Made by a program: the position numbers and the translations under genes | Shown here: one piece after another, positions 6,738 through 60,536 of the stretch | Numbering within the stretch: the stretch's first letter is position 1 | Layout: every line of letters starts with the position of its first letter | From: Verrucomicrobiia bacterium | GTDB lineage: Bacteria > Verrucomicrobiota > Verrucomicrobiia > Opitutales > Cerasicoccaceae | Assembly: GCA_030432235.1 (NCBI GenBank) | Contig: JAUIHT010000006.1 | Coordinates: 124,001 to 188,000 of the forward strand | Direction: 5' to 3' | Length of the DNA stretch: 64,000 nucleotides | The notes under the pieces: generated by a model | The model's database searches: none | What the model saw: the letters and a program-made list of their open reading frames with translations, nothing else | What the model was told of the DNA's origin: nothing

Positions 6738-6757
6738 GCCAGCAAAACGGTATAGCC

Positions 6758-13448: not shown

Positions 13449-14196
13449 GTCCAGTCCAGTCTCGCTCCTTTAGGGCCTTGACGTCAGCCAATGTAAGGGT
13501 ACCGGTATGGCCATCTACATAAAGTACATTCATGGTCTGCCCCGGCTGACGGAAATCCATGTAACTTGTCTCTTCTGGCGTACCCACTGCCGTATCTTTT
13601 CGTACATGGCTCTCAACCAAGGTAGAGGGGCAATACGGCAAGCCTGCATATTGCTTGGCATCGACGACCAGAAGCGTTTTGTTGGGCATGAAAATTGTAT
13701 TAATATTTCGGGAATGATAGTCTTCGGTTCTTCTACCGTCACTACCGTAATGCCAAAAGGCACCAGTCCCCGAATAAGTTAGAGAGAGTTTATCTATGTC
13801 AATGAGATTTCCACCGGAATCTGTGTAATCGACATTTCGGCAAATAAATGCCTCATTCGCGGGAGCCGTCAGGTGACCAGCCTTCTGAGGCAAGTAATCT
13901 CGGACCAATTTTTGCCAAGGCTGATCGGATGAAACTTTGTTATCTGGATACCATTCATTCCAGTCTTTATCGTCAATTTTAGGAGGAGGCATATCTCCAT
14001 TATGCTCAGAAACGTATAAATGTACTGCTGATGCAATATTCCGCAGATTACTGATCCCGTGCGCTTGTCGTGCATTATAGAGCATCTTTCCCACCACTGG
14101 GATGAGAATGGCGGCCAAAATGGCAACGATGGCTATGACCGTCAGCAACTCGATCAAGGTGAAGCCGAGGGAAAGTTTTGGGGTATGTCGTTTCAT
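13438..14196 (-). CDS. Type II secretion/type IV pilin-like pseudopilin
   Basis: The 252-aa protein has the prepilin signal GFTLIELLTVIAIVAILAAI with processing expected between G11 and F12. The C-terminal half contains NVLYVDGHTGTLTLADVKAL, close to the DG-H ending of the H-X9-DG class. It is embedded in a catabolic operon: 4 nt after the esterase-like gene and overlapping the isomerase gene by 11 nt. Together with the pseudopilin at 6003-6737 it is one of two in the window placed inside sugar operons. A role in surface display or in a secretion pseudopilus is possible but unproven. Confidence 0.88.
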   Translation of the reverse strand: MKRHTPKLSLGFTLIELLTVIAIVAILAAILIPVVGKMLYNARQAHGISNLRNIASAVHLYVSEHNGDMPPPKIDDKDWNEWYPDNKVSSDQPWQKLVRDYLPQKAGHLTAPANEAFICRNVDYTDSGGNLIDIDKLSLTYSGTGAFWHYGSDGRRTEDYHSRNINTIFMPNKTLLVVDAKQYAGLPYCPSTLVESHVRKDTAVGTPEETSYMDFRQPGQTMNVLYVDGHTGTLTLADVKALKERDWTGRDN

Positions 14197-14200
14197 GACT

Positions 14201-41904: not shown

Positions 41905-42083
41905 AACGTTATAGTAAAGGCCCAATTGATAAGGAGATCGTTTGCACTTTCAACGATGATTTTCGCCACGACTCCAAATACTACGGGGAACACCGATCCT
42001 TCGAATATCCATTATCAGCCCGCAGTGGCACTGTAGAATTGCCCTTTCTGGCCATTTTTGCATGCTGTCCACTTATCACTGCC

Positions 42084-45000: not shown

Positions 45001-48000
45001 AATCGCAAAGTATCTGGCTAAAAGAGGTAGTAATTGAAAACCCAGGCTCGCATGGCATGCACATCACCGGCCCGACTACCCGCGGGGTTGTAATCGAGCC
45101 AGGGCTCAATCCACCCAACTTCGGACACATCACCAATGCCACCGGCTACGGCGTGCTGGTCGACGATGGCGTCCAACAAAGCCGGATCGACCCAGGTGAC
45201 GTACGCAACTGCACACTGGGCGGCATTCGCATCAACGGTGCCAGCTGCGATAACAACGTCATCGGCTTTGACTCCCATGTCCGGCCAACCCTGCCAGCCA
45301 TCGTGGATAACGGCGGGCACGGCGTCCATGTCACGGGCGGCCCTGACAACCTGAGTATTCGCTGGCTGCTGACTGCGGGCAATGCAGGAGACGGCGTACG
45401 CGTCGACGGCCCCGCCTCCGGCTATCGTATCGACAGCATCTTCAGTGGCCTGGACCTTTACGATACTTCTCCGGGCGCCGATACTTACGCTTTCCCCAGA
45501 CCCAAGGTCTACAATCCCAAGCAAAACACCGGACACGGGCTTGCTTTGTACGAGGTGGACGACTCCGCCGTGGGGGGGGTGTTCCCTGCCCAGTCTATCC
45601 GGGGCTATGGCGAGCGCTTCGGCCTAGCCAACAACGCCAAGAGCGGCATCTACATGGAAAATTGCAACAACGTCACGGTGGCCAGCGGACACCTCGGTGA
45701 CATCTTCTCCCTGGACTTCGAGTTTGAGTTAATCGGAGCACACATCATCCCCAACGGCGAAAACGGCATCCATATCAAGGGCGGCAGCGGTAACAGCCTC
45801 GGTGGCATGCACAGCTATTACGACCTGCACATCAGTGGCGCGCCCAACGGGGCAGGCATCCTCATCGAGGACTCCGACGCCAACATCGTCTTCGGCAATC
45901 AAATTGGCACGGACCACGGCTTCGTCTCTTCCGAGTCCCAGGAACGCTTAAAGTACGGCGTCCACATCAAAGGCCAGTCGCGTGACAATAAGATCGGCCT
46001 GTTGGGCGGCTTTTTCGAAATACCATTCACCGGCGGCGAGGAACCGCCCTACCATGGGCCCTATCGACCTTTTAACATCATCGTTAACTGCCTGGAGGCC
46101 GGCGTCTTTATCGACAACGCCGGCGGCACGCCCGACTTCGGCAACCCCGCTCTGCCCGACCGGCCCAACATAGTCCAGAATAACTTCATCGGTCAGGACG
46201 AGTATACCTTCCTGGAGCACGGCAATGCCGTGGGTATTCTCCTTGAGGGCACCGCTTATGTGAATATCATCGGCGGACCTACGGAAGACCACGGCAACAT
46301 CATTCGCTTCAACGACGACGCCGGCATCCGCCTCCGCAATATGACCGTCAGCGACCCGGATGACCGCATGCCCTTCCGCGTGCGCATCGGGGGTAACTTT
46401 ATTTACGATCAAGGCAAGAACCACCCCGGGCCGGTGCAGCCGCTCCTGGACGGCTTTCCCGGCGGCGTGGGCATCCACCTGGACCACTGTACGGGATGCG
46501 TGCTGACACACCGGCCACTCGCGGACAACACCATCGATGACAACCATGTGGGCGTCATGGTCGAAGGCGGCGGCAGTAACCAGATCAGCACACTCAACCT
46601 GAACGACAATCTGGAAGCCGGCATGGTCTTGCGTGACACCTCTGACAATCTCGTGTCTCCACAAAAGCCGGGGCAACCCATCTTGATAAAGGACAATGGA
46701 GACGGTACCGTCAGTGTGAGTGGAGGCCTTATCCTGGCGGATAGCGATAACAACACTTTGCGCGGCCTCATCGTAGAAGGCAACACAGGCGACGGCATCC
46801 TGATCCACGACTCCTCCAACAACATCTTTGACGGCTTCATAAACCCCGGATTGAGCGTTCGCTCCAACACCCGGGACGGGATTCGCATTGAAGGCAGCCA
46901 GTCCACCAGCAACCAACTCTTGAACTTCGACATCGGCTTCGGGGTTGCAGCCGCCGCGCCCAACGGCGCGAACGGCATCCACCTGCGCGACGGTGCCTCG
47001 GGAAATCAAATCGGCGACGGCTTCAATACCAACCGTATCGCGAATCATGCCTTCGGCGCTGGCGTGCTGATCAGCGGTGGAAGCACGGTCGGCAACAGCA
47101 TCCGCAACAATCTGATCTACGACAATAACGGCGGCGGCATCATCCATCAGGGAGGAGGTAACAACGACCAACCCGGTCCCATTATCTCGAACCTGGATAT
47201 TGCCGGCAGGCAGCTCGAAGGCACGGTGACCAACACCGTTGAAATCCCCGCCGGTAGCCGCATCGAGGCCTACAGCGATTACACTACGCCCCCGCAAGGT
47301 CGCGCCTACCTGGGCCACACCTTCGTCAACAGCGGCGGCACCTGGAGCATGTACCTGCCCGCCAAAGCTGCTATCTACAGCAAAATCACCACCACGGCCA
47401 CCAATGCCAACACAGGCGACACCTCGGAATTCACTTTCGAGCTTGGTCTGGAAAGGAGCCTCAACATCGCTCGCTCCTCCGAGGACGACCCAACCACCGT
47501 GACGTTCTCCAGCAACCGCGAAGGCCTCACCCTCGATCACTACACGGTCAGTACCACCAACGCCGTGGTCATCGTCGATTCCATCACTTGCCAGTTGAGC
47601 GGTACCATAGACGACGCCTCAGTCTTTGCCCGGCTGGAAATCTGGCAAGACGCCGATGAAAACGGACGCATCGGCGATAGTGATGTTCAGCTGGGCGAGT
47701 TCACCGGGCTAACTGACAACGGAGCAATTGAGGTCCCCGTGGGAGCAACCTTGAATGAAAACGAGAGCCAGCGATGGCTGCTGCGGGCCACCCTCGCGAC
47801 TCCTCCAGGCAATGGGCAAACCGTCTCGGTCAGCGTCCTGAGCGAGGACGATGTGTCCTTCAGCGCGCCGAGTTATCCGGCCGGTATTGTCGTGAACGGA
47901 GACTTTCCCATCGTCAGTGATGCGCACCAGGCGACCACCTCCGACGCCTACGCACTCTTCCAGGCGAATTACTTCGGACCGGATGCTTCCAACCCCGCTA

Positions 48001-48347
48001 TTGCCGGTCGCTTCCAGGACCCCGATGGCGACGGCATCATCAACTGGATCGAGTTCCTGCTCGGCCTCGACCCCACCACGCCCGGCTCGCATCGCACGCT
48101 AGACGGCGAAGTGGTCGACGGCAAATACCGCTTTACCTACCGGCGCTTACAGGGGCAGGCCAACGATGCGGAACTACTGCCTGAGTTTTCGGCGGACCTG
48201 GAATACTGGTTCAGCGATGCCTCGCGCATCGTCGATGTGACCACCTTGGACAACGGGGACGGCACCGATACCGTCACGGTGGAAACGACCTACTCGACGG
48301 ACAACCATCGCGCGCTCTTCGGCCGCCTCCTGGTAGTCGAGCCCTAA
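42084..48347 (+). CDS. Giant secreted IPT/CSLREA/parallel beta-helix protein
   Basis: The product is 2087 aa from the ATG at 42084, which starts a clear signal peptide (MKLPKAYPLALGLLLLAHAL). An IPT/TIG-like domain lies at about 15-95 and two more at about 614-815 (RGGDVITITGYNFPEEPLV; YPGTTVIATVER). A CSLREA-type segment (TTADSDVMDGSLSLREALLI) is at about 825-860. A long right-handed beta-helix of Asn/Gly-rich NosD-like turns (GNGISIKYANL, GDGILIHDSSNNIFDG) covers about 885-1690. The C-terminus has DPDGDGIINWIEFLLGLDP, a Ca-binding repeat common at the ends of Verrucomicrobia exoproteins. No lyase residues can be assigned, so adhesion or carbohydrate binding is as likely as catalysis. Confidence 0.88.
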   Translation: MKLPKAYPLALGLLLLAHALFGQPSIDDLTPARVAIGESFTLHGSGFDAQKTYTVTVGDESLTVTDVSETELSVTAGTQSGLVSVAEDGQQFSREYYLSIVMSVAGTFAPPAGINPSGYYVMNGSESVAVNPDGIFTITVSASRAGVLWAYRNEDDPMFFGMHVPGDGSLVIDADSTATASLFLSPIITTRDMDLAEYRRDIIQERGPVATLAHFIQASASDGYDYMNDGRFDTLYTDALEDVSLAISQSPPPNAAPLLASLSRENEPTLPVVIKSLNRDEIPGSPASDGAVGWMKVKVERRGDIGDGSDYFVVTLENKQNRFLRTDNPLSWLFSVYEIDPSQFNNREEVENFDNSEATFDFVQPGYVDLPAIGPYYLGSIDADLGGADVDIGEVVINKVFAAFEEAAANDYNLLTGNKPTFTPAKNQFLVPGDREGIYVIQAFSGNLAFGYEHWDDLGSVTQIPVLNSQDKLSQWQSALVLNVVILSFDLLSVADLPQQLGDVVQEVFIDVSQLLSAEFAQQRELNRALVYAVVRQSAVSALEAIVKKKSGSVVTSTLNGIKFFGKAITKFFDLSSNVSAFVEFGQRTNGLLLKQCFATERFLVVLGNPFKAKIDDFRPRQGRGGDVITITGYNFPEEPLVSFCREPRTRTDDEDPEYDSKAEATVVRSDENSISVQVPENWETALGADRLTAYICIEEAGESHIATTEGRTDIPETFTYIPKPAIVSLSPETIYPGTTVIATVERSAGDRAEMHRIFLDDNQQCDIVSVSGDTIAFRVPDNFSPGFNSVTVQLLPYTSYVSDPYGFLISARPEDTATKGLGAIVSTTADSDVMDGSLSLREALLILSGQRGFTQRPDGVDSGAYEDDWLFETDGALIVEVDDTVAGQTITAGSAMPGIPSGCKVDLDGVTLDMTSGGTAFLNFDNRLSTKLEDVTITNFTGNGISIKYANLVQLNAVSLLGCSGVGVTIEESQSIWLKEVVIENPGSHGMHITGPTTRGVVIEPGLNPPNFGHITNATGYGVLVDDGVQQSRIDPGDVRNCTLGGIRINGASCDNNVIGFDSHVRPTLPAIVDNGGHGVHVTGGPDNLSIRWLLTAGNAGDGVRVDGPASGYRIDSIFSGLDLYDTSPGADTYAFPRPKVYNPKQNTGHGLALYEVDDSAVGGVFPAQSIRGYGERFGLANNAKSGIYMENCNNVTVASGHLGDIFSLDFEFELIGAHIIPNGENGIHIKGGSGNSLGGMHSYYDLHISGAPNGAGILIEDSDANIVFGNQIGTDHGFVSSESQERLKYGVHIKGQSRDNKIGLLGGFFEIPFTGGEEPPYHGPYRPFNIIVNCLEAGVFIDNAGGTPDFGNPALPDRPNIVQNNFIGQDEYTFLEHGNAVGILLEGTAYVNIIGGPTEDHGNIIRFNDDAGIRLRNMTVSDPDDRMPFRVRIGGNFIYDQGKNHPGPVQPLLDGFPGGVGIHLDHCTGCVLTHRPLADNTIDDNHVGVMVEGGGSNQISTLNLNDNLEAGMVLRDTSDNLVSPQKPGQPILIKDNGDGTVSVSGGLILADSDNNTLRGLIVEGNTGDGILIHDSSNNIFDGFINPGLSVRSNTRDGIRIEGSQSTSNQLLNFDIGFGVAAAAPNGANGIHLRDGASGNQIGDGFNTNRIANHAFGAGVLISGGSTVGNSIRNNLIYDNNGGGIIHQGGGNNDQPGPIISNLDIAGRQLEGTVTNTVEIPAGSRIEAYSDYTTPPQGRAYLGHTFVNSGGTWSMYLPAKAAIYSKITTTATNANTGDTSEFTFELGLERSLNIARSSEDDPTTVTFSSNREGLTLDHYTVSTTNAVVIVDSITCQLSGTIDDASVFARLEIWQDADENGRIGDSDVQLGEFTGLTDNGAIEVPVGATLNENESQRWLLRATLATPPGNGQTVSVSVLSEDDVSFSAPSYPAGIVVNGDFPIVSDAHQATTSDAYALFQANYFGPDASNPAIAGRFQDPDGDGIINWIEFLLGLDPTTPGSHRTLDGEVVDGKYRFTYRRLQGQANDAELLPEFSADLEYWFSDASRIVDVTTLDNGDGTDTVTVETTYSTDNHRALFGRLLVVEP

Positions 48348-48366: not shown

Positions 48367-49386
48367 TCACGCACCACCCTGAATCGCTTTAATGCGCTCA
48401 GCCACGTAGTGGGCGATCTCAATCATGCCTGCTGGCGACGGATGCACCAGATCCGTCGTCAGCCCCAGGGCAGGCTCCATTGCCTCGCGCCCATCGATAA
48501 AATGTAGGTTTGGGGCGTCTGCGGTACGAACTACCTCCTGCACCCACTCGCGAATTTCCTGAGCCCGGCCGGCGTAATCACTCAAGATATCCTCACGACA
48601 GGGAAACACCCCCAGGCAATAGACCGGTTTACTCGGATGGGCTACACTGAACCGTGTGATAAGCCCAGCAATGCGCTCTTTGACAAGAGCCAGGTCCAGC
48701 CCCAGCATGTTGATACCGGTTTCCAGAATGGCCCAGTCGAAGTCATTGCGCTGACAAAGATACTCCGTCATTTCGGGCTCACAATGACAGCCACCCCCAA
48801 AGCCCAGGTTCATCAAGTCCGCACCAAGCAGATGAGCACACCGACCCGCCCAGGACTCCCGGCAGCTCAATGCTCCGGAGCCATGAGTGATCGAAGAACC
48901 GTAGTTTAACACACGAAGCGCTGGCATGTCACTGGCCTCCGGCGGCGCAATATCGCCTTCGATGGATACCTCACAAATACTGGCATGGGTGGGTAAGAGC
49001 AATCTAACCAGACGCGGGTGAAATTGACGCTCCTGGCTAGGCACCGTCTCCAGTTGCTCATAATCCGGGGCCACCAGCTCATAGGTTAGCAAATCTTCCG
49101 TAACCGGAATGTAGGTGGCGCTAAAATCGCCGAAGAGAAGCTGGGCAAGACCTCCCCCATGATGTTTCGCCAGAACGGAGCAAGCGCGAATACGAATCGT
49201 CGCCGTTGGACTATTCAAGCGAAACCGCAACTCACAGCCCGCACTGCATAATGCTCTTTCTTGCGCGTTCTCGTTTAATTTTACACGCAACGACTCGGGT
49301 ATGCGGCTGATTACCTTCTCACCTGCTTGAGGGTGGTTGACCCATTCGCAGATATTATGTTGATAGACTTGCTTCGGCAGTTTCAT
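48367..49386 (-). CDS. SGNH/GDSL hydrolase (carbohydrate esterase-like)
   Basis: The 339-aa protein has an N-terminal beta-sandwich (about 1-150) like that of CE2-type esterases. The SGNH domain shows block I LNYGSSITHGSG (nucleophile Ser), block II Gly in NLGFGGGCHCEPEM, block III ETGINMLG and block V TDLVHPSP (Asp/His). No signal peptide is seen, suggesting cytoplasmic deacetylation. It ends 20 nt from the convergent giant gene and is downstream of the LacI gene at 49476-50567 on the same strand, with an 89-nt gap; the two may be co-transcribed. Confidence 0.87.
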   Translation of the reverse strand: MKLPKQVYQHNICEWVNHPQAGEKVISRIPESLRVKLNENAQERALCSAGCELRFRLNSPTATIRIRACSVLAKHHGGGLAQLLFGDFSATYIPVTEDLLTYELVAPDYEQLETVPSQERQFHPRLVRLLLPTHASICEVSIEGDIAPPEASDMPALRVLNYGSSITHGSGALSCRESWAGRCAHLLGADLMNLGFGGGCHCEPEMTEYLCQRNDFDWAILETGINMLGLDLALVKERIAGLITRFSVAHPSKPVYCLGVFPCREDILSDYAGRAQEIREWVQEVVRTADAPNLHFIDGREAMEPALGLTTDLVHPSPAGMIEIAHYVAERIKAIQGGA

Positions 49387-49475: not shown

Positions 49476-50567
49476 CTACTGATCTGACGTCGGGGCGGCG
49501 CAGGAATCCCGGCACACGAGCGAAACCGGCAAGGTGATGGTTTGCTCATGCTGTCCCCCACCCAACGTAATCCGCTTATCCAGTTCTTCTATTGCTCGTG
49601 CTCCCATCTCAGCCAAAGGAAAGTGTATCGTGGTGAGTGCGGGATGATGGGTTTCTGCCGTCATGGTATCATTGCAGCCCATGATGGAAATATCCCGGGG
49701 AATGCGATACCCCCGGGATTGCAGATGTGCCGAAATCACTGCTGCAGCCGGATCGTGAAAGCAGAGGATGGCGGTAGGTTTCGGGTTAAGGCTCATCAAG
49801 TGATCCGCCGCGGCAGCTAGATTTTCTTTGGAAAATTCGCCCACCCGGGACTCGCAGTGGTAGATGTACTGCGGATGCATAGGCAGTCCACACTCCCTGA
49901 TGCCTTCGGAAAAACCGTAGCTCATCTCCGTCATGTTGTAGAGACGCTCCCCAAAGGGCCCTGTCAGATAGGCAATGCGCATATGCCCCAAGCCCGCCAA
50001 GTAGTGGACCGCCTGCTTGGTCGCATCCACGTAGTCGGGCACAATGCAGCACAGGCCCGGGATGTCTAACTTATGGCCCAGATACACAAAGGGCAGTCCC
50101 GCTTGCACGGCACAACTCACCAGACTCGGATTGGGGGAGCTGGCAGCGATAAAGCGCGTCGCCGATCCGTTACGCATGGCCTGAGGTAGCTTCGCATCCG
50201 GCAAGGTATAGTCGGTGTCTGGATCGAAAAGGGAATAAGCCACCGATTCGGTTGGGTCTGCCAAAGACTCCAGAACACCACTGAGCATCGGTCCGAAATA
50301 CTCGTTCTGGACTCCGCTGGGCACCGCCGAATTAAGCAGGAAGCAGACGTTGCCCAGCTTCGGATAGAGCAATCTCATGGCCGACTCGCTTTTCGGCATG
50401 TAGTTCCGCTTGCGACAAGCATCCAGGACACGGCGCTGCGTTTCGGCACTGAGACGGATACCGTAGGAGCGGCTGTTCAAGAATGAAGATATGGCACTGG
50501 CAGACACACCAGCCTCACTGGCGATCTGCGCTATGGTAACGGGTTTCTCCAAGGAATTTACCGACAT
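49476..50567 (-). CDS. LacI-family transcriptional regulator
   Basis: The 363-aa protein has an HTH (IAQIASEAGVSASAISSFLN, residues about 12-31) with the recognition helix SASAISSFLN. A LacI-type effector domain contains GVLESLADPTESVAYSLF, FVYLGHKLDIPGLC, HYLAGLGHMRIAYLTGP, AILCFHDPAAAVISAHL and RDISIMGCNDTMTAETHHP. It faces a divergent secreted protein across 190 nt of AT-rich DNA that holds two exact copies of ATATTTATCATA, one 6 nt upstream of its own ATG. It probably represses itself and the divergent gene. Confidence 0.92.
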   Translation of the reverse strand: MSVNSLEKPVTIAQIASEAGVSASAISSFLNSRSYGIRLSAETQRRVLDACRKRNYMPKSESAMRLLYPKLGNVCFLLNSAVPSGVQNEYFGPMLSGVLESLADPTESVAYSLFDPDTDYTLPDAKLPQAMRNGSATRFIAASSPNPSLVSCAVQAGLPFVYLGHKLDIPGLCCIVPDYVDATKQAVHYLAGLGHMRIAYLTGPFGERLYNMTEMSYGFSEGIRECGLPMHPQYIYHCESRVGEFSKENLAAAADHLMSLNPKPTAILCFHDPAAAVISAHLQSRGYRIPRDISIMGCNDTMTAETHHPALTTIHFPLAEMGARAIEELDKRITLGGGQHEQTITLPVSLVCRDSCAAPTSDQ

Positions 50568-50573
50568 GATTAT

Positions 50574-50585
50574 ATATTTATCATA
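50574..50585. promoter_or_regulatory. Direct repeat copy 1, putative LacI-type operator
   Basis: ATATTTATCATA, repeated exactly at 50656-50667, begins 6 nt upstream of the LacI ATG at 50567 on the opposite strand. Confidence 0.45.
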
Positions 50586-50635: not shown

Positions 50636-50673
50636 TTATCTTATATTCAATATCCATATTTATCATAAGATAA
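50636..50673. promoter_or_regulatory. Perfect 9-bp inverted repeat with direct repeat copy 2, putative operator
   Basis: TTATCTTAT (50636-50644) and ATAAGATAA (50665-50673) are perfect inverted arms 20 nt apart. The right arm overlaps the second copy of ATATTTATCATA (50656-50667). A TTGACA at 50690-50695 follows, pointing to the secreted-protein gene, so this could be a binding site upstream of its promoter. Confidence 0.5.
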
Positions 50674-50757: not shown

Positions 50758-52734
50758 ATGAAAAAACTGCTTCTGGCATCCCTGATCATCACCTACGCAT
50801 CGTCACTGATTGCCGGGGAGGAGCCAGATGCAGACTTAGTCGAACGCAGCACAGTCGTCTCACAGGACGGACGTCCCGCCTACAACTGGCTCTATTACAT
50901 GCATGGCGTCAGCGATCAGGAGGCCCATCCTCTCGATCTGCCTACCCTCTTTTCCCAAGCTATTCTGCAAGGTCTTCTCATCGTGGGGAGAACCATTATC
51001 GAAACACCGGACGGAGCCTGGGAGGGGCCGGCATTGGCGCTGGAGGGCGAAGGCAAGATCATATCCAGTTCGCCGCTGGGCTTGCCACTGAAAGCGGTCC
51101 GAGGCAAGAAGGTCCGCGTCTTCGTCTGGGCGAGCGGCCAGGACACCGGCCGGGTCAACTCACCCAACAGCTATGGAGACGCGCCAAATATCGGCATACA
51201 AGTCCTGGGGCCGGGCGAAGTACAACTGTCCATGACGGCCTCCATTGTCATCGGCACGACTGGGACCTTTCCCTGGCAGACTTACCATATCGAAGTTTTT
51301 ATTCCGGAAGAAGCGCAAGCCGTACACCTGGTTCTCTCGAATAACTACGGTCAGGCCTACTTCGCCAAGGCATCCTGGGAAGTCATCCGCAAAAAGAACC
51401 ACTATTCCTCTTGGGACCGGCAGGATCCCATCACCGGGAGCACCGCCACCAACGTCTACTATGACGAAATGAACCGGCAGTTCGCACGTGGCTGGCCCAG
51501 TCGCTACACCTGGAATTACTTCAAAGGGCCTAACGCCGGACTCGTTGGTCAGGCTTACGACATCACCACCATCGAGGGCCTGACCCGGTACTTCAACGAA
51601 AAGGTCAAGACCGACAACGACCACATGAACCACAGCCTGATGTACTTTGCCAGCCGCTACAAGATTGGCAAAGAGAAGGGCGTCCTACCCGAAGGCATGG
51701 ACGATGCCTGGTTTGAGGCTCTGACCGAACTGGTTCTGGCCGACCAGGATCCCGAGACCGGCTACTGGGGCACCAACGACACGCCTCGCAGCATGGGCAT
51801 CACCTTCCACTTCCTCGACGGTCTGTTCAACTACTACGGCCCCATCCGCAGCGATGCACCGGAGCGCTTTAACGAGCAGCGCACCTTGGCCGTCAGGGAA
51901 ATCCCACGCCCGGAGGCCATCGCCCGAACCACCCTGGACATGCAGGCGACGACCTCCGATGGCAAGGCTCTCGCGGCTTGGCCCCGCGTTGCCTATAATT
52001 ATACCAGCGATCCCAATCAGGGCGAGGAGCGTGCATCATTGGTGGTAACAAATAATGCCCTGGCCATCCTGCGCGCCTGCGAACGCTTCGTGCCACAGGA
52101 GACCCAACAGGAAATCCAGGACTCCATGCGTGCGGCCACGCGCTACTTGCTGGAACAGTGCATCCGTGACAACGGCCTGTGGCTGCAAAGTGACCAGGAT
52201 GCCGAGCCCACGACCAATTTTTACATGAATCGCATCCTCGATCGGACTCATTACCTCGAGCGTAAAATCGACCCGTCACTGGAAGCACCCGAGGTCCGTG
52301 TAGTTTGGAAGGATAAAACCCGTGCCTCTCTGGAATGGCCCACTCCGCAGGAGGGACAAACATCACTGCGTATTTATGCGGCACCGTGCGAGAAACTGGT
52401 CAAGGCTTTCGCAGACGAAGACCTCGTTGCGATCCTTCAAAAAGACGGAACACACATCGTTGCCCGCGACCCCTACGTCGCAACCCGTGACATGCGTGTG
52501 GCCATGCAGGATCGCTGGGGCAAGGACTGGTCCTCCAAGACCTACCTCGGAGAAAAGAGCCGCATCGCCGACAAAGTGACAGTACTGGATCATGCAGAGG
52601 CCTGGGAATGGGCCCCACGCGACGGCTACTGTTACTACGCTTCCGCAGTCAGTTGGTATGGAGACGAAAGCGTTCCGCGGAAAATTGAGTTAGACCTACC
52701 TGCCACGGGAGACTCGCAAAACGCACAGCCTTGA
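50758..52734 (+). CDS. Secreted protein of unknown family, beta-sandwich plus helical toroid
   Basis: The product is 658 aa from the ATG at 50758, giving the signal peptide MKKLLLASLIITYASSLIAG; the frame extends to 50734. Residues about 40-225 look like a carbohydrate-binding-type beta-sandwich (GKKVRVFVWASGQDTGRV, EAQAVHLVLSNNYGQAYFA). A Trp/Tyr/Gly-rich helical region follows (DPETGYWGTNDTPRSMGITF, LVVTNNALAILRACERFV), suggesting an alpha-toroid. The last 140 residues resemble a fibronectin-III-like end. I recognise no named family and no catalytic set. The divergent LacI gene and AT-rich operator-like repeats imply substrate-induced expression. Confidence 0.8.
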   Translation: MKKLLLASLIITYASSLIAGEEPDADLVERSTVVSQDGRPAYNWLYYMHGVSDQEAHPLDLPTLFSQAILQGLLIVGRTIIETPDGAWEGPALALEGEGKIISSSPLGLPLKAVRGKKVRVFVWASGQDTGRVNSPNSYGDAPNIGIQVLGPGEVQLSMTASIVIGTTGTFPWQTYHIEVFIPEEAQAVHLVLSNNYGQAYFAKASWEVIRKKNHYSSWDRQDPITGSTATNVYYDEMNRQFARGWPSRYTWNYFKGPNAGLVGQAYDITTIEGLTRYFNEKVKTDNDHMNHSLMYFASRYKIGKEKGVLPEGMDDAWFEALTELVLADQDPETGYWGTNDTPRSMGITFHFLDGLFNYYGPIRSDAPERFNEQRTLAVREIPRPEAIARTTLDMQATTSDGKALAAWPRVAYNYTSDPNQGEERASLVVTNNALAILRACERFVPQETQQEIQDSMRAATRYLLEQCIRDNGLWLQSDQDAEPTTNFYMNRILDRTHYLERKIDPSLEAPEVRVVWKDKTRASLEWPTPQEGQTSLRIYAAPCEKLVKAFADEDLVAILQKDGTHIVARDPYVATRDMRVAMQDRWGKDWSSKTYLGEKSRIADKVTVLDHAEAWEWAPRDGYCYYASAVSWYGDESVPRKIELDLPATGDSQNAQP

Positions 52735-52786: not shown

Positions 52787-52927
52787 TTGATATGGAGTAT
52801 ACTCTTGGTCAACTGCACCCGCCGGGTACTACTTCCGAAATCTGTGACCGGGCTCAAGGACATCGAGGAGCAGCGCGGCAAATGGCAGAAGGAAATCCGC
52901 GCAATGGAGCTTCAAGGAATACGCTAG
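52787..52927 (+). pseudogene. Possible small membrane protein or gene remnant
   Basis: Read from a TTG at 52787, the frame gives 46 codons: a hydrophobic start (IWSILLVNC) and a charged, helix-prone tail (LKDIEEQRGKWQKEIRAMEL). The frame is open back through the end of the preceding gene, and no ATG or clear ribosome site is seen. The hydrophobic-then-charged layout looks protein-like, so it may be a remnant of a longer gene or a real small protein. The overlapping frame at 52792-53016 looks non-coding. Confidence 0.2.
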
Positions 52928-53104: not shown

Positions 53105-53869
53105 ATGACCTCTTTTGACCGCCGTCAGAAAATCCTCGAGCTTGTTCGCGCAGACGAAAGCGTAGCCGTTCAGGACCTGCTCGATGCGCTTGGAACGTCG
53201 CCCGCTACGCTTAGACGCGACTTGGTCGCGTTGGAAAACGAAGGCAAGGTAGTACGCACACACGGCGGAGTGCTGCATCCTCGTCGCCTCTCCGCCGAGC
53301 CTAGCTTTTCCGTCAAGCAACAGCAGTCGCCAACAGAGAAGCTGGTCATTGGGCGGACTGCCGCCCAGGCTATCCCGAAAGGCGCCACGGTTTTCATTGA
53401 TGCTGGCACGACATGCCTGGAAACGGGCCTCGCCTTGTTGGAGCGGAATGAGAATCAACTGTTCACGAACTCTCTACCTCTTCTTTATCACGGTTGTTCT
53501 CAGCCCGGACGCGTCATCGCTCTGGGGGGCGAGGTACGCTCAATCAGCCGGGCACTGGTCGGAGGCATGGCACTGGAGTGGCTACGTCGCCTGCGTTTCG
53601 ATTACGCCGTAATCGGGGCTTCAGCTCTCGACCCGGACATGGGGGCCTTCACTTCGGAAGTCAGCGAGGCTAATCTCAAAAGCCAGGCCCTCCAACACGC
53701 CAGCACTACCCTACTCTTAGCCGACAGCGGCAAGTTTTCACTGGGAGCACCGGTTAATTTCGCCCAGTGGCAGGATTTCAGCCACTGGTTTACGGACGCA
53801 AACATCCCCCCATCTCACGTGCAAAAGCTTAGAAAGCAAGTACCGGTAACCATCGCCCGCTTCTCTTGA
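53105..53869 (+). CDS. DeoR-family transcriptional regulator
   Basis: The 254-aa protein has the DeoR winged HTH (RRQKILELVRADESVAVQDL, LGTSPATLRRDLVALENEGK, VVRTHGGVLHP) and the sugar-phosphate-sensing domain with IGRTAAQAIPKGATVFIDAG, RVIALGGEVRSISRALVGG and VIGASALDPDMGAFTSEVSE. It heads the rightward operon of aldolase-fold protein, D-lyxose isomerase, mutarotase, kinase, alpha-mannosidase and GH78-like enzyme. Such regulators usually respond to a phosphorylated intermediate, which the PfkB kinase of this operon could make. The next ATG is 2 nt after its stop. Confidence 0.92.
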   Translation: MTSFDRRQKILELVRADESVAVQDLLDALGTSPATLRRDLVALENEGKVVRTHGGVLHPRRLSAEPSFSVKQQQSPTEKLVIGRTAAQAIPKGATVFIDAGTTCLETGLALLERNENQLFTNSLPLLYHGCSQPGRVIALGGEVRSISRALVGGMALEWLRRLRFDYAVIGASALDPDMGAFTSEVSEANLKSQALQHASTTLLLADSGKFSLGAPVNFAQWQDFSHWFTDANIPPSHVQKLRKQVPVTIARFS

Positions 53870-53871
53870 AC

Positions 53872-54915
53872 ATGCTCAAAAGTCTCGACCAAAAACTTGC
53901 GCGCATCCTTGCGGGCAAAGCCACCCGCAAAGACTTCATTATTGCGGATGCCAAGGATGCCGACATGGCATTCGGCATCACCGCACCCGGCCCCAACCGT
54001 GCCGGGATCTGCCCACACGGCTACAATGAATCCGAGGGCTGCTGGAAAACCCTGGCCGACTACCAGGCTCAGATCCGCGAAGTAATCAAGCAGGCATTGG
54101 TAGACATTGTGCTGCTCTCCGCATCCAACCTTGAGCGCTTGGCCATTGAAGAAAAGCTCTTCCGCAACTCCCCGATCACTCCTGCCGCCAGAGCAAACGA
54201 TACGACCGATGTATGGGCCGTACGCGGTGGCAAATACGCCAGTTTTCCGTCGCGCCACTTCCGTACCGCAACCCTCGATCATATCAAGTACGGCAAGCTG
54301 GAAACCTACCACAACAAGCCTTTCAGCGGCGCGGACCTGGGCCTGTACTCCATTACATTTACCAACGATCTGGAGTGGGACTACCGGGCTCTGGAGGAAT
54401 TCCATGACTTCCGTCTGGAAGCGGAGAAAAAGCAATTCCGCTATTTCCTTGAAGCTTTCAATCCCAACGTCGATCCCGGCATTGAACCCGAGAAAATCGG
54501 CGGTTTCCTCAACGATTGCATCATCCGCTGCCTGGCTGGCGTAACGCGCGCAGGGCGCCCTATTTTCCTTAAAATCCCCTACAACGGCCCCGGCCCGATG
54601 GAGGAGCTCGCCTCCTACGACCCGTCATTGGTCGTCGGCATACTCGGCGGTAGCTCTGGCACGACACTCGATGCCTTTCAACTTATCCACGACGCGCAAA
54701 AGTATGGGGCCCGGGTGGCACTCTTCGGCCGCAAAATAAACCTCTCCGAGCACCCTCTCGCGTTCATCGAGTTCCTGCGCCGCATCACCGACGGTGAAAT
54801 CACCCCTGCCGAGGCTGTTCGCGCCTACCACGGAGTATTGCAAAAGCTTCGAATTCAGCCTGTGCGCTCGCTCGAAGACGATCTCGTGCTATCCGAAACT
54901 AAAAAGAGTTATTAG
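53872..54915 (+). CDS. Aldolase-fold (beta/alpha-barrel) protein of unknown specificity
   Basis: The product is 347 aa from the ATG at 53872; a TTG overlapping the DeoR stop would add two residues. Barrel-like strands are DIVLLSASN, GRPIFLKIPYNGPGPMEEL (a Lys at a strand end that could form a Schiff base), LVVGILGGSSGTTLDAFQLI and GARVALFGRKINLSEHPLAF. The last part resembles class I aldolases of the DeoC/LacD/FbaB type, but I cannot assign the reaction. Its place before an isomerase and a PfkB kinase makes cleavage of a ketose phosphate plausible. Confidence 0.6.
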   Translation: MLKSLDQKLARILAGKATRKDFIIADAKDADMAFGITAPGPNRAGICPHGYNESEGCWKTLADYQAQIREVIKQALVDIVLLSASNLERLAIEEKLFRNSPITPAARANDTTDVWAVRGGKYASFPSRHFRTATLDHIKYGKLETYHNKPFSGADLGLYSITFTNDLEWDYRALEEFHDFRLEAEKKQFRYFLEAFNPNVDPGIEPEKIGGFLNDCIIRCLAGVTRAGRPIFLKIPYNGPGPMEELASYDPSLVVGILGGSSGTTLDAFQLIHDAQKYGARVALFGRKINLSEHPLAFIEFLRRITDGEITPAEAVRAYHGVLQKLRIQPVRSLEDDLVLSETKKSY

Positions 54916-54919
54916 CCCC

Positions 54920-55492
54920 ATGAAGCGTTCTGAAATCAATGCCATTTACGATGAAGCCAAAGCATGCTTCGAGAATCATGGATGGGCCCTACCGCCTGAA
55001 CCACGCTGGGATATTACCGACTTCGGACTCGGTGATTTCGAGCATTACGGACTCGTCCTTATAAACCTCGCCGACGAACGCGAGTACTGCGAGAAGCTGA
55101 TGTATGCACGCCCGGGACAGCGTACACCCGCACATAGCCATGCCCAAAAAAAGGAGGATATTATTTGCCGGCATGGCCGCCTCGCTCTCCAGCTTTGGAA
55201 GGCACACCCCGATAAGTCTGACGCAGACAAAACCTTCGAGCTCCAGATCAACGGCTCTCCACGAAAACATACCTCCGGCGAAGTATTGGTCCTGAACGCT
55301 GGAGAACGTATTACGCTGACGCCGGGCATCTACCACGAGTTCTGGCCGCAAACAGAAGGCTGCATCATTGGCGAAGTCTCAACAGCCAATGACGATGCCA
55401 ACGACAACTTTTTCGTCGACCCCACCGTAGGCCGCTTCCCCGGCATCAAGGAAGATGAACCCGCTACGGTAAGGCTAATCAGTGATCCTTAA
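54920..55492 (+). CDS. D-lyxose isomerase family protein (D-lyxose/D-mannose ketol-isomerase)
   Basis: The 190-aa cupin starts with MKRSEINAIYDEAKACFENH, typical of the E. coli-type D-lyxose isomerase family, followed by YARPGQRTPAHSHAQKKEDI (two His and a Glu of the metal site) and LTPGIYHEFWPQ (further His). The open frame reaches upstream into the preceding gene, but the ATG at 54920 is the natural start, 4 nt after that gene's stop. The family converts D-lyxose to D-xylulose and often D-mannose to D-fructose. Beside a GH38 alpha-mannosidase and a sugar kinase, mannose is the likelier substrate. Confidence 0.88.
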   Translation: MKRSEINAIYDEAKACFENHGWALPPEPRWDITDFGLGDFEHYGLVLINLADEREYCEKLMYARPGQRTPAHSHAQKKEDIICRHGRLALQLWKAHPDKSDADKTFELQINGSPRKHTSGEVLVLNAGERITLTPGIYHEFWPQTEGCIIGEVSTANDDANDNFFVDPTVGRFPGIKEDEPATVRLISDP

Positions 55493-55498
55493 TTGTAG

Positions 55499-56620
55499 AT
55501 GAACTCCACTCCCGTACCCCTGCACGGCGAACCGTCCGTCAAAATTCAATCAGACCTGACAACCGCCTGGCTTACCTTACGGGGCGGACACATTGCCCCG
55601 GTGGATTTTCGACTCGATGACGGGATGCTAGCTCAACCGTATTCGCTAGCCCCGTGGGAACCGTCAGACTACCCGGAGCAGCCACCTATCCTGCAAATTC
55701 TTCGGGGCGATTTTTTCTGCCTGCCCTTCGGCGCCGATCCAGGCCAAACCTGCCCTCACGGCGACCCGGCGAATGCTCGCTGGCAGATAACCAAACAGGA
55801 TGAGAGCTCTCTTGCGCTTGCCCAAAAGGACATCAGCAACCAAGGCTGCATCAAGAAGCGCGTTCACTTGAGCAAAGGACAACGTGTACTCTATCAGGAA
55901 CATCTTTTGGACGGATTCGACGGCCCCTTTTGCTATGGCCATCATCCCATCCTGCACATCCCGAAAGGCGTTAGTTGTCCGCTACGAACAAGCGCATTCA
56001 AGTTTGCCCAAACTTGTCCGAGTCGCTTCGCCAATCCGGAGCTCGGAGAGCACGGCTGCCTGGCCCAAGGTGCGCGCTTCGACTCCCTGAGCGCGGTCCC
56101 ACTGGCCAATGGAGGCACGCTCGACCTGCGCCAATATCCACATCAAAGCGATTGCGAGGATTTGCTGATGCTCACTCCGGCGGAGACTGGACTGGCCTGG
56201 ACGGCGCTTACTTTTCCCGGCTATGTTTGGCTGTCTCTGCGCAGCACGGTACAATTTCCGTCCACCGTACTGTGGCTAAGCAACGGCGGACGTCCTCAGC
56301 CCCCCTGGGACGGACGACATACGCGCCGCATCGGCGTCGAGGATGTCTGCGCCTACTTTGCCGAAGGACCTGCCGCCAGCACACGCCAACCACTCTCCAA
56401 CGAAGGAATCAAAACGGCCCATCACTTCACTTCCGGCAAAACCGTTCTGCTGCGCCACGCTCAGGGCGTACATCCGGTGAAAGGGCAACCTGGTCTGGCC
56501 GAGCTTCAGCCAGTCGAAGGAGAACAGACGGCAAAACTCATCTTCGAAGACGGTCAGGCCGCATACATGCCCATGGACTGGCACTGGCTTCTTGAACCCG
56601 ACCAAGGACTTTCACAATGA
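55499..56620 (+). CDS. Aldose 1-epimerase/mutarotase-like beta-sandwich protein
   Basis: The 373-aa protein has a galactose-mutarotase-like look: TTAWLTLRGGHIAPVDFRLD near the start, LRGDFFCLPFGAD, YQEHLLDGFDGPFCYGHHPI with a His pair, and TALTFPGYVWLSLRSTVQFP with WLSNGGRPQPPWDGRH. The presence of His residues at strand ends fits anomer conversion, but the exact catalytic set cannot be fixed by eye. Its stop overlaps the kinase start as ATGA. It may supply the anomer used by the isomerase next door. Confidence 0.75.
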   Translation: MNSTPVPLHGEPSVKIQSDLTTAWLTLRGGHIAPVDFRLDDGMLAQPYSLAPWEPSDYPEQPPILQILRGDFFCLPFGADPGQTCPHGDPANARWQITKQDESSLALAQKDISNQGCIKKRVHLSKGQRVLYQEHLLDGFDGPFCYGHHPILHIPKGVSCPLRTSAFKFAQTCPSRFANPELGEHGCLAQGARFDSLSAVPLANGGTLDLRQYPHQSDCEDLLMLTPAETGLAWTALTFPGYVWLSLRSTVQFPSTVLWLSNGGRPQPPWDGRHTRRIGVEDVCAYFAEGPAASTRQPLSNEGIKTAHHFTSGKTVLLRHAQGVHPVKGQPGLAELQPVEGEQTAKLIFEDGQAAYMPMDWHWLLEPDQGLSQ

Positions 56621-57630
56621 CACGCAAAGGCATACTTGCCGCAGGAAACTGGATCATCGACCATGTGAAGCTGCTTGATGGCTGGCCCCACCAGGACGGG
56701 CTCGCCACCATCACGGCACAATCCGACGGCAACGGTGGTTGTCCCTACAACGTGGCTAAAGATCTCGCCAGGCTTCAGCCCGGCATGCCTCTGTTTGCCG
56801 CGGGCCTGCTCGGAGACGATGTCGATGGCCGCGCCATCCTTACCGACTGTCAGGCGCATGGCATTGACACGAGCCGTATGACCATAACCGCCGCTGCGCC
56901 CACATCTTATACGGACGTCATGACCGAAGCATCGACCGGGCGCAGGACCTTTTTTCACCAACGAGGAGCCAACGCCCTGCTCAATCCCGAACACATTCTT
57001 TTGGACGACTGTCCCGCGCGCCTCTTCGTTATGGGCTACTTTGGCTTACTCGATGCGATGGACTCCCTCTTACCGGACGGACACAATGGATATTCCAAGG
57101 CCTTTTCACGCGCTTCGGAGCTAGGTATGTTCACTTGTGCCGATCTGGTTAGTACACCGTGCGACTTTCCCGCCATCGTAAACCCCAGCCTGCCCCATCT
57201 GGATATTCTGGTGCTGAACGAATGGGAAGCAGCTCAACTTACCGGCAAAGCCAACAGCGACAATGACCGAGTGGACCTGCAAGCCCTGGAAGCCCAGGCC
57301 CACGACCTGCTCGCACGAGGAGTACGCCAAGCGGTGGCTATTCATTTCAGTGCGGGTGCCGTGATTGTGACCGCCTCTGGCGAGTGCCATCTCCAAGGTT
57401 CTGTAAAAATACCTGCAGAGCGTATTCGCGGTGCAGCGGGAGCCGGTGACGCCTTTTTTGCGGGGCTTCTATTTGGCTTTCATGAAGGATGGTCCTGGCC
57501 TGAGTGTGCGCGGTTAGCCGTCTGCACAGCTGCAGCTTCGTTGGAGGCCCCCACCTGCTCCGAGGCGGTTCAATCTTGGCGTGATTGCCTGGCTCTAGGT
57601 GACACACTGGGCTTTAGGGCCATAAAGTAG
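56617..57630 (+). CDS. PfkB-family carbohydrate kinase
   Basis: The 337-aa protein shows the PfkB N-terminal glycine motif (QSDGNGGCPYNVAKDLARL), a lid-like FAAGLLGDDVDGRA, VLNEWEAAQLTG and the C-terminal signature RGAAGAGDAFFAGLLFG with the catalytic Asp. It is coupled to the mutarotase gene by a 4-nt overlap. In this operon it would phosphorylate the ketose formed by the isomerase (fructose or xylulose). Its product could be the DeoR effector and the aldolase substrate; this is inference. Confidence 0.9.
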   Translation: MTRKGILAAGNWIIDHVKLLDGWPHQDGLATITAQSDGNGGCPYNVAKDLARLQPGMPLFAAGLLGDDVDGRAILTDCQAHGIDTSRMTITAAAPTSYTDVMTEASTGRRTFFHQRGANALLNPEHILLDDCPARLFVMGYFGLLDAMDSLLPDGHNGYSKAFSRASELGMFTCADLVSTPCDFPAIVNPSLPHLDILVLNEWEAAQLTGKANSDNDRVDLQALEAQAHDLLARGVRQAVAIHFSAGAVIVTASGECHLQGSVKIPAERIRGAAGAGDAFFAGLLFGFHEGWSWPECARLAVCTAAASLEAPTCSEAVQSWRDCLALGDTLGFRAIK

Positions 57631-57643
57631 TTTCGTTAACCCC

Positions 57644-60406
57644 ATGAAGACAAAAGCCTCCAAAAAACCTTCAGCAAAACTGCGCAAGGTCCACTACGTG
57701 CTCAGCACTCACTGGGATCGTGAGTGGTACCAGACCTTTCAGGACTATCGCCGTCGGCTCGTGAACCTACTCGATCGGCAGTTGGACGACATCGAACGCG
57801 GCGCAGTCAAAGGTCCTTTCACCACCGACGGACAGGCTATCATCCTGGCCGACTATCTGGAAATCAGACCCGAGCGTCGGGCCCAGATTGAGCAGTATGC
57901 CACTTCGGGAAAACTAAACATCGGCCCCTGGTATGTTCTACCGGACGAGTGGCTGGTTTCAGGCGAGTCGATTATACGCAACCTGCGCCTGGGTCGGGAA
58001 ATCGCGCGAGCTTACGGTGGTAAGCCTTCCTCCGCCGGCTTTGTCTGTGACCTTTTTGGCCACATCAGCCAGCTTCCGCAAATTGCCAAAGGCTTTGGCA
58101 TCGGGGCCGGGCTCATCTGGCGCGGGCTGGAGCCACGCAAAACCGCGCACATCCTCTGGCGCGGCGCGGACGGCACAGAGCTTCCCTGCTACCGCTTCGG
58201 GCGTGCCGGCTACTGCGACTATTCATGGGATGTGCGCCGCAATACGGAGTACCGGGTCACTTTTGACAAGAAGCAGGCACTGGCGGATATCAAAGCATTT
58301 CTCGCCAAGGAAGCTGCCCGTACCGCAATTCCCCCGATGATCGTTTTTGATGGTGGCGACCATCTGGAGCATGACCTCGACCACTATCGCCTCCTCTTCT
58401 CGCAAAAGCCGAGTGAGGACTTTCCGTATGAAATCATCCATAGCACACTCGACGCCTACCTGGATGACGTTATCGCCCATGCGGGAAAAATCACTGAAGT
58501 GGTCGAAGGTGAATTACGCGAACCCGGCGGTCTACCGGGAGATCAGGATCAGCAGTGGCTCATCCCGGGCGTGCTATCCAGTCGTGTGTGGATCAAGCAA
58601 GCCAACGCCGAATGCCAAACGCTGCTTTGCCAGTGGGCCGAGCCGCTTTCCGTCCTCGACTCGCTTTTAACCGGTGCTCCTGCACCCCATGGCTATCTGG
58701 ATGTCGCCTGGCGCTGGTTACTGCAAAACCATCCCCACGATTCTATTTGCGGCTGCAGCATCGACGAAGTTCACGAGGACATGAAGTACCGCTTCGCCCA
58801 GGCTCGTCAAATTGCCTCAGCCCAAGTGGATGAATCACTGCTCTCCCTCGCGGCCTCCGTTCCCGGCGATATTCACACCGGTGAGCTCCGTGTGCTGGTA
58901 GCCAACTCTCTACCGCGAGCCGTTGATGAGGTCGTCACTCTTGTCCTGAGCATCCCCGCAGAATGGGGGACCTATCAAGAGTTCTTCGGCTTCGAGCCCA
59001 AGCCGGCATTCCACATTTACGACACCGCTGGCAAGGAGCTCCCCTATCAACTGCTGGCGAAGGACATGGGGCGAACCAAGCGTCGCATTAATCCCATCAA
59101 ATACCCGGAAGCTTACAAGACCAACGATATCACCGTAGCGGTTCGACTCAAACTACCCGCTCTCGGCTACACTACGCTAACGGTGAAGGAAGGCGCCAAG
59201 TCGGAACAATCCGGCCCGATTGTTCCTGCAACTCTGCCAACCCGCCATAGGTTAGCCCCTGGCTTGGCTACCAGCGAACGCTCCATGGCCAACGACCACC
59301 TTTCAATCGTCATTGAGAACAACGGCACCCTCACCCTTACCGACAAGCGTACCAGCCACACCTATGAGCGCCTCATGACTTTCGAAGACTCAGCAGACAT
59401 TGGCGATGGCTGGTTTCACGGGCAGGCGGTCAATGATCAGCGCTTCGTCACGAGTGCTACCAATGCAGACATAGCCCTCGTCCAGGACGGACCTCTACTC
59501 AGCTGCTTCCGTATCCGCATCCAGATGAACCTTCCTGAAGAGTTCGTGCAGGATAAATGGATTCGCTCCGAGAAGTTAACACCCGTGGTCATTGATAACT
59601 TGGTGACCCTCCGTGCCGGCAGTAAGCGTATCGAAATAACGACCTCCGTGGATAACCAAGTCAGAGACCACCGGCTACGAGTACTCTTTCCTTCCAGTGC
59701 AACTAAAGCACAAAGCTATCTCGCAGATGGCGCCTTCGATGTAGTGGAACGAAAGATCGGCCTCCCCGAGAACCATTACTTAGACCGGGAACTTCCGGTG
59801 GAAGGCACTCCACAGCAAACCTGGACCGCAGTCACCGACGGTAATCAAGGTCTGGCCGTGGTCTCGAATGGCCTGATGGAATCCGCCGTCAGGGATTTGG
59901 ATGACAGACCCATTGCCTTGACTCTATTTCGCTCCACACGCCGCACCGTCCTGACCGATGGGCAACCTGAAGGTCAGATACAAGGACGCATGAGTTTCAA
60001 GTACTGGATTATGCCGCAGGAAGGGCACCCCAACCGGCGTGCTCTCTGCGAAGCAGGCCAACAACTGGCTACCGATTTACGAACCGTGCAGCTTACCACC
60101 CCGGACCTGCCCATTTACAGAAAATCAAAGGTGCAGGTTAAACCAACCGATAGCCTTATTAATTTGAAGGGAGCAGCGATTCTCAGCAGCCTGCGGTCCG
60201 TAGGCGAAGCGATAGAAATTCGACTGTTTAACCCGAATACGCGAAAAGCCTCAACGACTCTCGAATTAGCAGAACGCCTTTGGAAAAACCGTAAGGTGAC
60301 CCAAGTGAATCTTGAAAGTGCCCCGCAGGGACCGTCGAAAAAGGCCACCTCGCAACTCAAGCTTAGCCTGAAGCCCAAAGAGATTGTGACCCTGAGATTC
60401 AATTAG
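57644..60406 (+). CDS. Alpha-mannosidase, glycoside hydrolase family 38
   Basis: The 920-aa enzyme has the GH38 zinc motif LSTHWDREWY (H23, D25) and the nucleophile segment FVCDLFGHISQLPQI with D136. A further zinc/active-site segment is NHPHDSICGCSIDEVHEDMK. A middle helical domain and long C-terminal beta domains complete the usual layout. There is no signal peptide, so it acts on imported manno-oligosaccharides or glycan fragments in the cytoplasm. It is 13 nt after the kinase gene in the same operon. The released mannose would go to the D-lyxose/mannose isomerase. Confidence 0.93.
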   Translation: MKTKASKKPSAKLRKVHYVLSTHWDREWYQTFQDYRRRLVNLLDRQLDDIERGAVKGPFTTDGQAIILADYLEIRPERRAQIEQYATSGKLNIGPWYVLPDEWLVSGESIIRNLRLGREIARAYGGKPSSAGFVCDLFGHISQLPQIAKGFGIGAGLIWRGLEPRKTAHILWRGADGTELPCYRFGRAGYCDYSWDVRRNTEYRVTFDKKQALADIKAFLAKEAARTAIPPMIVFDGGDHLEHDLDHYRLLFSQKPSEDFPYEIIHSTLDAYLDDVIAHAGKITEVVEGELREPGGLPGDQDQQWLIPGVLSSRVWIKQANAECQTLLCQWAEPLSVLDSLLTGAPAPHGYLDVAWRWLLQNHPHDSICGCSIDEVHEDMKYRFAQARQIASAQVDESLLSLAASVPGDIHTGELRVLVANSLPRAVDEVVTLVLSIPAEWGTYQEFFGFEPKPAFHIYDTAGKELPYQLLAKDMGRTKRRINPIKYPEAYKTNDITVAVRLKLPALGYTTLTVKEGAKSEQSGPIVPATLPTRHRLAPGLATSERSMANDHLSIVIENNGTLTLTDKRTSHTYERLMTFEDSADIGDGWFHGQAVNDQRFVTSATNADIALVQDGPLLSCFRIRIQMNLPEEFVQDKWIRSEKLTPVVIDNLVTLRAGSKRIEITTSVDNQVRDHRLRVLFPSSATKAQSYLADGAFDVVERKIGLPENHYLDRELPVEGTPQQTWTAVTDGNQGLAVVSNGLMESAVRDLDDRPIALTLFRSTRRTVLTDGQPEGQIQGRMSFKYWIMPQEGHPNRRALCEAGQQLATDLRTVQLTTPDLPIYRKSKVQVKPTDSLINLKGAAILSSLRSVGEAIEIRLFNPNTRKASTTLELAERLWKNRKVTQVNLESAPQGPSKKATSQLKLSLKPKEIVTLRFN

Positions 60407-60536
60407 GGCTCGCATTGCTGCTGAGGTTTGATTTTCCCAATGGACGTTGAGTGCAATGTTTCCCATTGGCTGACGCCTTGGTTATCTCCAAAGGCCGTTA
60501 CGAGAACACACATGACTCCTTTTCGTGAATACACCC

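Follow-up and report, generated by a model that had tools for sequence, protein, structure and literature searches.

A family of secreted-looking proteins with a predicted helical toroid, found beside sugar-type regulators and pilin-like genes in Verrucomicrobiota

The question raised by this locus is what a secreted-looking protein of 658 aa, encoded divergently from a LacI-family repressor, does for its host. The gene lies on the plus strand at positions 50758-52734 of the window, by which we mean the whole 64,000-nt stretch of Verrucomicrobiia DNA analyzed here. The initial annotation had described an unrecognized secreted protein, built from a carbohydrate-binding-like sandwich, a helical toroid, and an Fn3-like end, that was the sole target of a dedicated LacI regulator and might be a new type of polysaccharide lyase or hydrolase.

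The reading frame runs uninterrupted over 658 codons and a stop, and it is not a chance frame, since homologues align with it at 22-40% identity, most of them across nearly the full length. An ATG upstream of this start, at 50734, would give an alternative product of 666 aa; the start at 50758 yields an opening stretch that, by eye, resembles a signal peptide (residues 1-19; 50758-50814, plus strand). The description as unrecognized and secreted-looking agrees with the searches, in which the protein matches 0 Pfam and 0 NCBIfam families and 0 PDB sequences at E ≤ 1, and 0 PHROGs at E ≤ 0.01. It thus falls outside every Pfam and NCBIfam enzyme family at E ≤ 1, and a known enzyme family finds no sequence support in these four libraries. 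When 20 family members were scanned singly, the matches were scattered and weak (best E 0.012 in Pfam and 0.048 in NCBIfam), among them a Glyco_hydro_48 match in Pfam in 1 of the 20 (E 0.027). A 31-residue stretch of one relative, L003, matches a PHROG of unknown function (E 9e-4). The 20-member profile found a single PDB chain (a taste receptor, E 2.2), which we regard as a chance match. Among paper titles and the opening lines of abstracts, none is tied to this family.

A pattern scan of genome_contigs, which was also the single scan covering phyla beyond Verrucomicrobiota, recovered relatives in a Victivallis metagenome-assembled genome (L002, 40% identity) and a Lentisphaerae one (L003, 29%). 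Further searches widened this set. Across the phylum, 24 of 387 genomes match, including that of the window; the match in genome G389 is weak (66 residues with an internal stop, E 9e-4) and is not counted as a member. All other matches of this search belong to the class of L002, which we take to be Lentisphaeria and where a profile finds matches in 43 of 197 genomes, two of them with short, weak hits (G098 and G426); the one in G098, 79 positions at E 1.3e-4, is likewise not counted. Within that class, 27 of the 29 genomes of family f57 match (G426 over 67 positions only). No genome carries two full copies, in f57 or elsewhere; three genomes (G209, G431, and G434) have two partial matches each, on different contigs. 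Two scans of viral_contigs gave no viral relatives. Altogether, this is a real protein family, without a name in the searched libraries and known mainly from Lentisphaeria; the searched genomes contain about 40 members, counting partial ones.

The host of the window stands apart in this distribution. Within its order, the family occurs in 1 of 372 genomes, its own, the 371 others searched having no match, and among its near relatives in 1 of 54, again its own. A tree of 37 family members divides into clade a, with seven rows including the window (support 100/99); clade b, with 21 rows, all from f57 (100/100); and group c, nine rows that lie between the two and do not form one side of a branch. 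The window protein and L002 are sisters, with support (94/91) that falls short of the tool's starred level; the exact place of the window protein is unsure because it is one of the long branches. Given the tree and the contrast between 1 of 372 genomes in the order and 43 of 197 in the other class, the host probably obtained the gene by horizontal transfer. Base composition gives no sign of such a transfer, the gene having 57.7% GC and the window 56.2%.

Structure prediction offers a first view of what the protein might do. The full-length AF2 model, built from three sequences, reaches a pLDDT of 52.2 and a pTM of 0.38. In it, ten-residue blocks over residues 51-210 range from 38 to 84 in pLDDT and form a predicted beta-sandwich (residues ~49-216; 50902-51405, plus strand). 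This domain matches CBM4-2 (2y64) in Foldseek at E 1.1e-5 and CBM16 in VIA at Z 10.8 (rmsd 3.0, 131 residues aligned), so the carbohydrate-binding-like sandwich of the initial annotation is supported by a model of moderate confidence. The predicted fold is that of the CBM4, CBM16, and CBM22 modules; unlike them, the protein has no CBM family match by sequence in Pfam. The fold is a common one: insecticidal Cry toxin domains score as high against it as CBMs do, and so do the ends of phage tailspikes.

Residues 215-513 (51400-52296, plus strand) were folded alone, the full-length model having been rejected for this purpose on its pTM and pLDDT. The separate AF2 model (again from three sequences; pLDDT 62.8, pTM 0.69, first 38 residues under 50) is a helical toroid, which lends support to the second element of the annotated architecture. 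Foldseek finds nothing for it at E ≤ 0.001. In VIA, the top row is a PL10 pectate lyase (Z 11.2, rmsd 3.8, 209 residues aligned), followed by prenyltransferases (Z 10.9-10.5), a cellobiose 2-epimerase (10.2), and complement C4b (10.1), with complement C3b at 9.5. Rows within 1 Z are counted as tied, and helical folds may reach a Z near 11 simply by sharing a common arrangement; therefore, the ranking supports the toroid class and not PL10 in particular. The PL10 enzyme of Cellvibrio (PDB 1gxn) resembles the predicted toroid in shape at 11% identity over the VIA alignment, but it shares its rank with prenyltransferases and epimerases, and the protein lacks a Pfam or PDB sequence match. Similarly, the toroids of protein prenyltransferases and terpene cyclases are like the predicted fold, and their QW motifs resemble the L..Q..GxW-like repeats seen here, yet the present protein looks secreted and matches no family by sequence. 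The last domain (residues ~512-632; 52291-52653, plus strand) is predicted to be a beta domain that carries a helical insert; by eye, its strand order in a low-confidence model looks Fn3-like.

Conservation across the 37 sequences runs through all three domains. An MHGxxD motif lies at residues 48-53 (50899-50916, plus strand), with M48 and H49 in 36 of 37 sequences and G50 and D53 in 34. Eleven residues are invariant (R120, G169, W173, G198, F202, G257, G335, W337, W408, R538, and D571), and Y596 (34/37) and K600 (33/37) stand out in the C-terminal domain. Within the toroid, conservation is strongest mainly at Gly and Trp positions; QW-like motifs occur there (Q330..G335-W337, Q396..W408, and G473-W475), and no toroid Cys of the window protein falls in a conserved column. 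Acidic positions are also kept: D236 in all 37 sequences (36 D, 1 E), E501 in 36 (35 E, 1 D), D223 in 34, and D366 in 33, the remaining four having Gly at D366. D223 and D236 lie within the first 38 residues of the toroid model, where pLDDT is below 50. Clade a, with few sequences (seven), adds H351, R364, D366, R439, and E501 in 7/7 and N291 and H292 in 6/7; beyond this clade, position 351 is His in 2 of 30 sequences and Ala in 14. Judged from the alignment, the conserved toroid acids would leave room for an active site, though D236, E501, D223, and D366 do not by themselves show one.

The regulator next to the gene points toward sugars. A LacI-family repressor (49476-50567, minus strand; PF00356 at E 3.3e-7 and PF13377 at E 6.7e-31) is indeed divergent from the 658-aa protein gene, as first proposed. 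The 190-bp intergenic region shared by the two genes (30.5% GC) holds a 12-base direct repeat, ATATTTATCATA, at 50574-50585 and 50656-50667, and the repeat search also finds an inverted repeat at 50636-50673 with 18-nt arms, 83% complementary and 2 nt apart. Both patterns are rare in dinucleotide shuffles: a direct repeat as long arose in 6 of 1,000, and arms that pair equally well (15 of 18 positions) in 2 of 1,000. In the 5.72-Mb genome, the two intergenic copies of ATATTTATCATA are the only exact ones. Hence the repeats noted at the outset are real, and we take the two copies to be candidate LacI operators.

The claim of a sole target is not supported. Directly behind the repressor gene, 89 nt away and on the same strand, lies a GDSL/SGNH esterase gene (48367-49386, minus strand; PF13472 at E 1.9e-16), which may also be under the control of LacI. 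Moreover, ATATTTATCATA has 23 further sites in the genome with one mismatch, and the total of 25 sites compares with 10 for a reversed-pattern control; given this excess, further LacI targets are possible.

Other genes around the locus are of varied kinds. A 46-codon frame behind the gene (52787-52927) reads like a small lipoprotein (LVNC). Directly downstream, the run at 53105-62957 encodes a DeoR regulator, a 349-aa unnamed protein, a D-lyxose isomerase, a 373-aa unnamed protein, a PfkB kinase, a GH38 mannosidase, and an alpha-L-rhamnosidase-like protein, and is a sugar catabolic run. On the other side, at 42039-48347, a 2,102-aa protein has three TIG stretches and right-handed beta-helix repeats.

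We then compared the neighborhoods of the relatives along the tree. All six clade a members other than the window have a pilin-like gene as their immediate upstream neighbor in the same orientation, in five cases 15, 16, 23, 27, and 27 nt away and in one overlapping by 4 nt. A regulator is part of the same gene run in five of these six; L002 is the exception, its contig breaking off right ahead of the pilin. The regulator is LacI in L036, a GntR protein with a LacI-type sensor in L035, LacI-like but below the HTH cut-off in L038, and AraC in L003 and L104. A sugar-type regulator, as annotated for the window gene, thus recurs among its relatives. A GH39 gene stands ahead of the pilin in L003 and L104, and L003 also has a GH130 gene (the L003 genes were tested as L046, from the same genome). 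The window gene has no pilin-like gene beside it.

Clade b presents a different neighborhood. Of 25 loci examined, 22 could be assessed (two end at the gene and one has the gene uncalled), and in 16 of the 22, covering six of nine genera, a GspH-like gene follows directly downstream; where the contigs extend far enough, I-, J-, and K-like genes mostly accompany it. The GspH match was confirmed by Pfam at one locus, L034, and the other loci were grouped with it by BLAST. Six loci of three genera lack a GspH-like gene in that position; in G132, G393, and G292, which belong to these genera, a GspK-like gene is 769 kb away or on another contig, and in their partners (G427, G424, and G399) a GspK-like gene was not found. 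The GspK-like proteins of the f57 pseudopilin operons (L034:13595-16459 and relatives) are themselves about 900-1,300 aa long, where the usual GspK is far smaller, and the single one tested has no Pfam match.

Group c differs again: in all eight assessable loci of nine, the gene directly upstream is of the Aconitase or Aconitase_C type (three confirmed by Pfam), presumably leuC/leuD, and no pilin is among the genes listed. Since group c lies between clades a and b, pilin neighbors may have arisen on two occasions or have disappeared in c. With a custom LacI profile, a LacI-like gene beside the target appears at clade a loci only (the window, L035, L036, and L038), and the fetched neighborhoods of clade b and group c have none.

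The pilins of clade a are in part a matched set. Behind the common N-terminus, those adjoining L003, L104, L035, and L036 share their bodies at 30-53% identity (E 1e-18 to 1e-70); those adjoining L002, the sister of the window, and L038 match these cognate bodies poorly. Searched with a profile built from these four bodies, genomes G067, G374, and G473 each give one pilin and G403 gives three, of which the adjacent one is far ahead; the four adjacent pilins match by construction, and almost no other pilins of those four genomes do. The profile gives one weak match in G054 and none in G406, and no pilin of this cognate type was found in the genome of the window. General pilin matches are abundant by comparison, with 63 to at least 150 per genome in the six other genomes of clade a and 77 in that of the window, and a T2SSF-type gene is present in all nine genomes tested, including the latter.

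We also counted genes in 16 stretches around N_methyl matches, taken without regard to neighbors or to the 658-aa family, from G000 (whose matches were listed in full) and from G054, G374, and G403 (among the matches listed, a part of the total), with gene calling and the LacI test done by custom scripts. The immediate upstream neighbor on the same strand is LacI-like for 7 of 24 pilins vs 2 of the 86 genes that are not pilins (Fisher p 2.9e-4), a count in which the pilin pattern had been widened after gene inspection, shifting L127_01 to the pilins; with the first, narrower pattern, the numbers are 6 of 22 vs 3 of 88 (p 1.9e-3). Drawn from 16 loci of four genomes, these counts suggest that LacI genes and pilins go together. 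The genes behind the seven LacI-linked pilins encode GH5 proteins in three cases, CBM9 proteins in two, and proteins of no family in two. Proteins of 639 and 972 aa with 0 Pfam families occupy this cargo slot at L130:3-2649 and L127:1257-4996, and there may be further unknown families in the cargo slots of such modules. At the window locus, LacI is adjacent and divergent, so the sugar-type regulator of the module is present; the pilin part is absent.

Related arrangements occur elsewhere. At 4865-8050 of the window, LacI, pilin-like, and DUF6259 genes follow in a row on one strand, with GH65 next (the run extends to 10038), and at 13438-15712, on the minus strand, a second pilin-like gene lies directly behind a SASA-type carbohydrate esterase gene. 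In L036, a GH5 gene is followed 17 nt on by a pilin-like gene, with a LacI gene adjoining (5781-9334); pilins may also be placed behind their cargo, as here. In Verruconatronum alginivorum, a pulG-like pseudopilin lies in an alginate cluster, a pseudopilin is over-expressed on alginate, and the genome has 67 homologues, according to the passages considered here (PMC13274419). The likeness to the present loci is a pseudopilin within a polysaccharide gene cluster; the difference is that those passages concern alginate lyases and make no mention of the 658-aa family. Cargo-specific pseudopilins are not proposed for this setting in the titles and abstract openings that our literature search returned.

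Taken together, we favor the reading, at roughly even odds (probability about 0.5), that the 658-aa protein is a sugar-induced, secreted protein acting on polysaccharide, as enzyme or binder, from a new family linked to pseudopilins. The family itself, its clades, the regulator, the repeat, and the operon neighbors are the observed basis of this reading, and the sandwich and toroid folds are supported by the models; on these we infer induction, glycan binding, an export route, and any catalysis, in addition to the transfer. Specifically, a sugar derived from polysaccharide would bind LacI, which would leave the two candidate operator copies and allow the gene to be expressed. The protein would be exported by Sec, its N-terminal sandwich would bind polysaccharide, and the toroid would be the site that cleaves or grips the chain. 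In the clade, the product of the pilin-like gene may serve to fit this cargo to the type II secretion machine. The CBM-like sandwich, the sugar-type regulators, the GH39 and GH130 genes in clade a runs, and the GH5 and CBM9 cargos of similar modules indicate that the family is probably linked to carbohydrate. Several points count against the reading. The window copy has no pilin beside it, its genome gave no pilin of the cognate type, and the pilins adjoining L002 and L038 fit that type poorly; the fetched clade b and group c loci have no LacI-like gene; the one-mismatch copies of ATATTTATCATA make other LacI targets possible; and the models, of low to moderate confidence, show folds that other proteins share.

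Several accounts overlap with this one or compete with it. The protein could be a new polysaccharide lyase or glycoside hydrolase with the sandwich as its binding module and the active site in or at the toroid, a reading that is plausible but tentative, at somewhat less than even odds. Among solved structures, PL10 comes closest to the predicted toroid, although it shares that place with others; D236 and E501 are almost always acidic; clade a keeps H351, D366, and E501 in every member and N291 and H292 in all but one; and GH5 proteins take the same module position at three of the seven other loci. On the other hand, Pfam and NCBIfam give no convincing enzyme family match, the gene is single-copy and sits in non-sugar contexts in clade b and group c, and D366 is replaced by Gly in four sequences. 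Alternatively, the protein could act as a core accessory within the pseudopilus or the type II secretion machine, for instance as a large tip or substrate-handling protein, with sugar control in clade a being secondary. Its presence in 27 of 29 f57 genomes and never in two full copies, the GspH-like neighbor in 16 of 22 loci and six of nine genera, and the pilin directly upstream in all other members of clade a would agree with such a role. We nevertheless consider it unlikely: group c has an aconitase-type gene upstream in 8/8 assessable loci and no pilin listed, the pseudopilin genes are not adjacent in three f57 genera, and the genome of the window has 77 pilin matches and T2SSF-type genes, yet a search of its 371 order mates gave no match. 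The polysaccharide-acting, enzyme, and accessory readings are overlapping ones.

A surface adhesin, whose toroid would bind or cross-link without catalysis in the manner of complement thioester domains, is far less probable than any of these. C4b and C3b do appear among the VIA rows, and the conserved toroid residues are mostly Gly and Trp; against this, the fold similarity is generic, and a thioester needs a conserved Cys, of which the toroid has none.

Returning to the polysaccharide-acting protein that we favor, its setting allows a bolder, rather doubtful extension, namely that Lentisphaeria and some other Verrucomicrobiota fit a type II pseudopilus to each polysaccharide. Many sugar regulons would have a pseudopilin of their own, inherited together with one secreted protein, and induction would equip the pseudopilus with a subunit specific to that cargo; the window copy would then be a cargo whose partner was lost once the gene had been transferred. 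If this were true, the 658-aa family would supply one of these cargos, and its toroid would bring a new chemistry or a new mode of binding. The family could in any case hold a new carbohydrate activity. More broadly, the operons suggest that pilus parts do not account for all of the numerous pilin-like genes in these bacteria, as some are placed between the gene of a sugar repressor and that of a single secreted protein. Were pilin and cargo functionally paired, this would offer a direct route to how one secretion machine handles many cargos.
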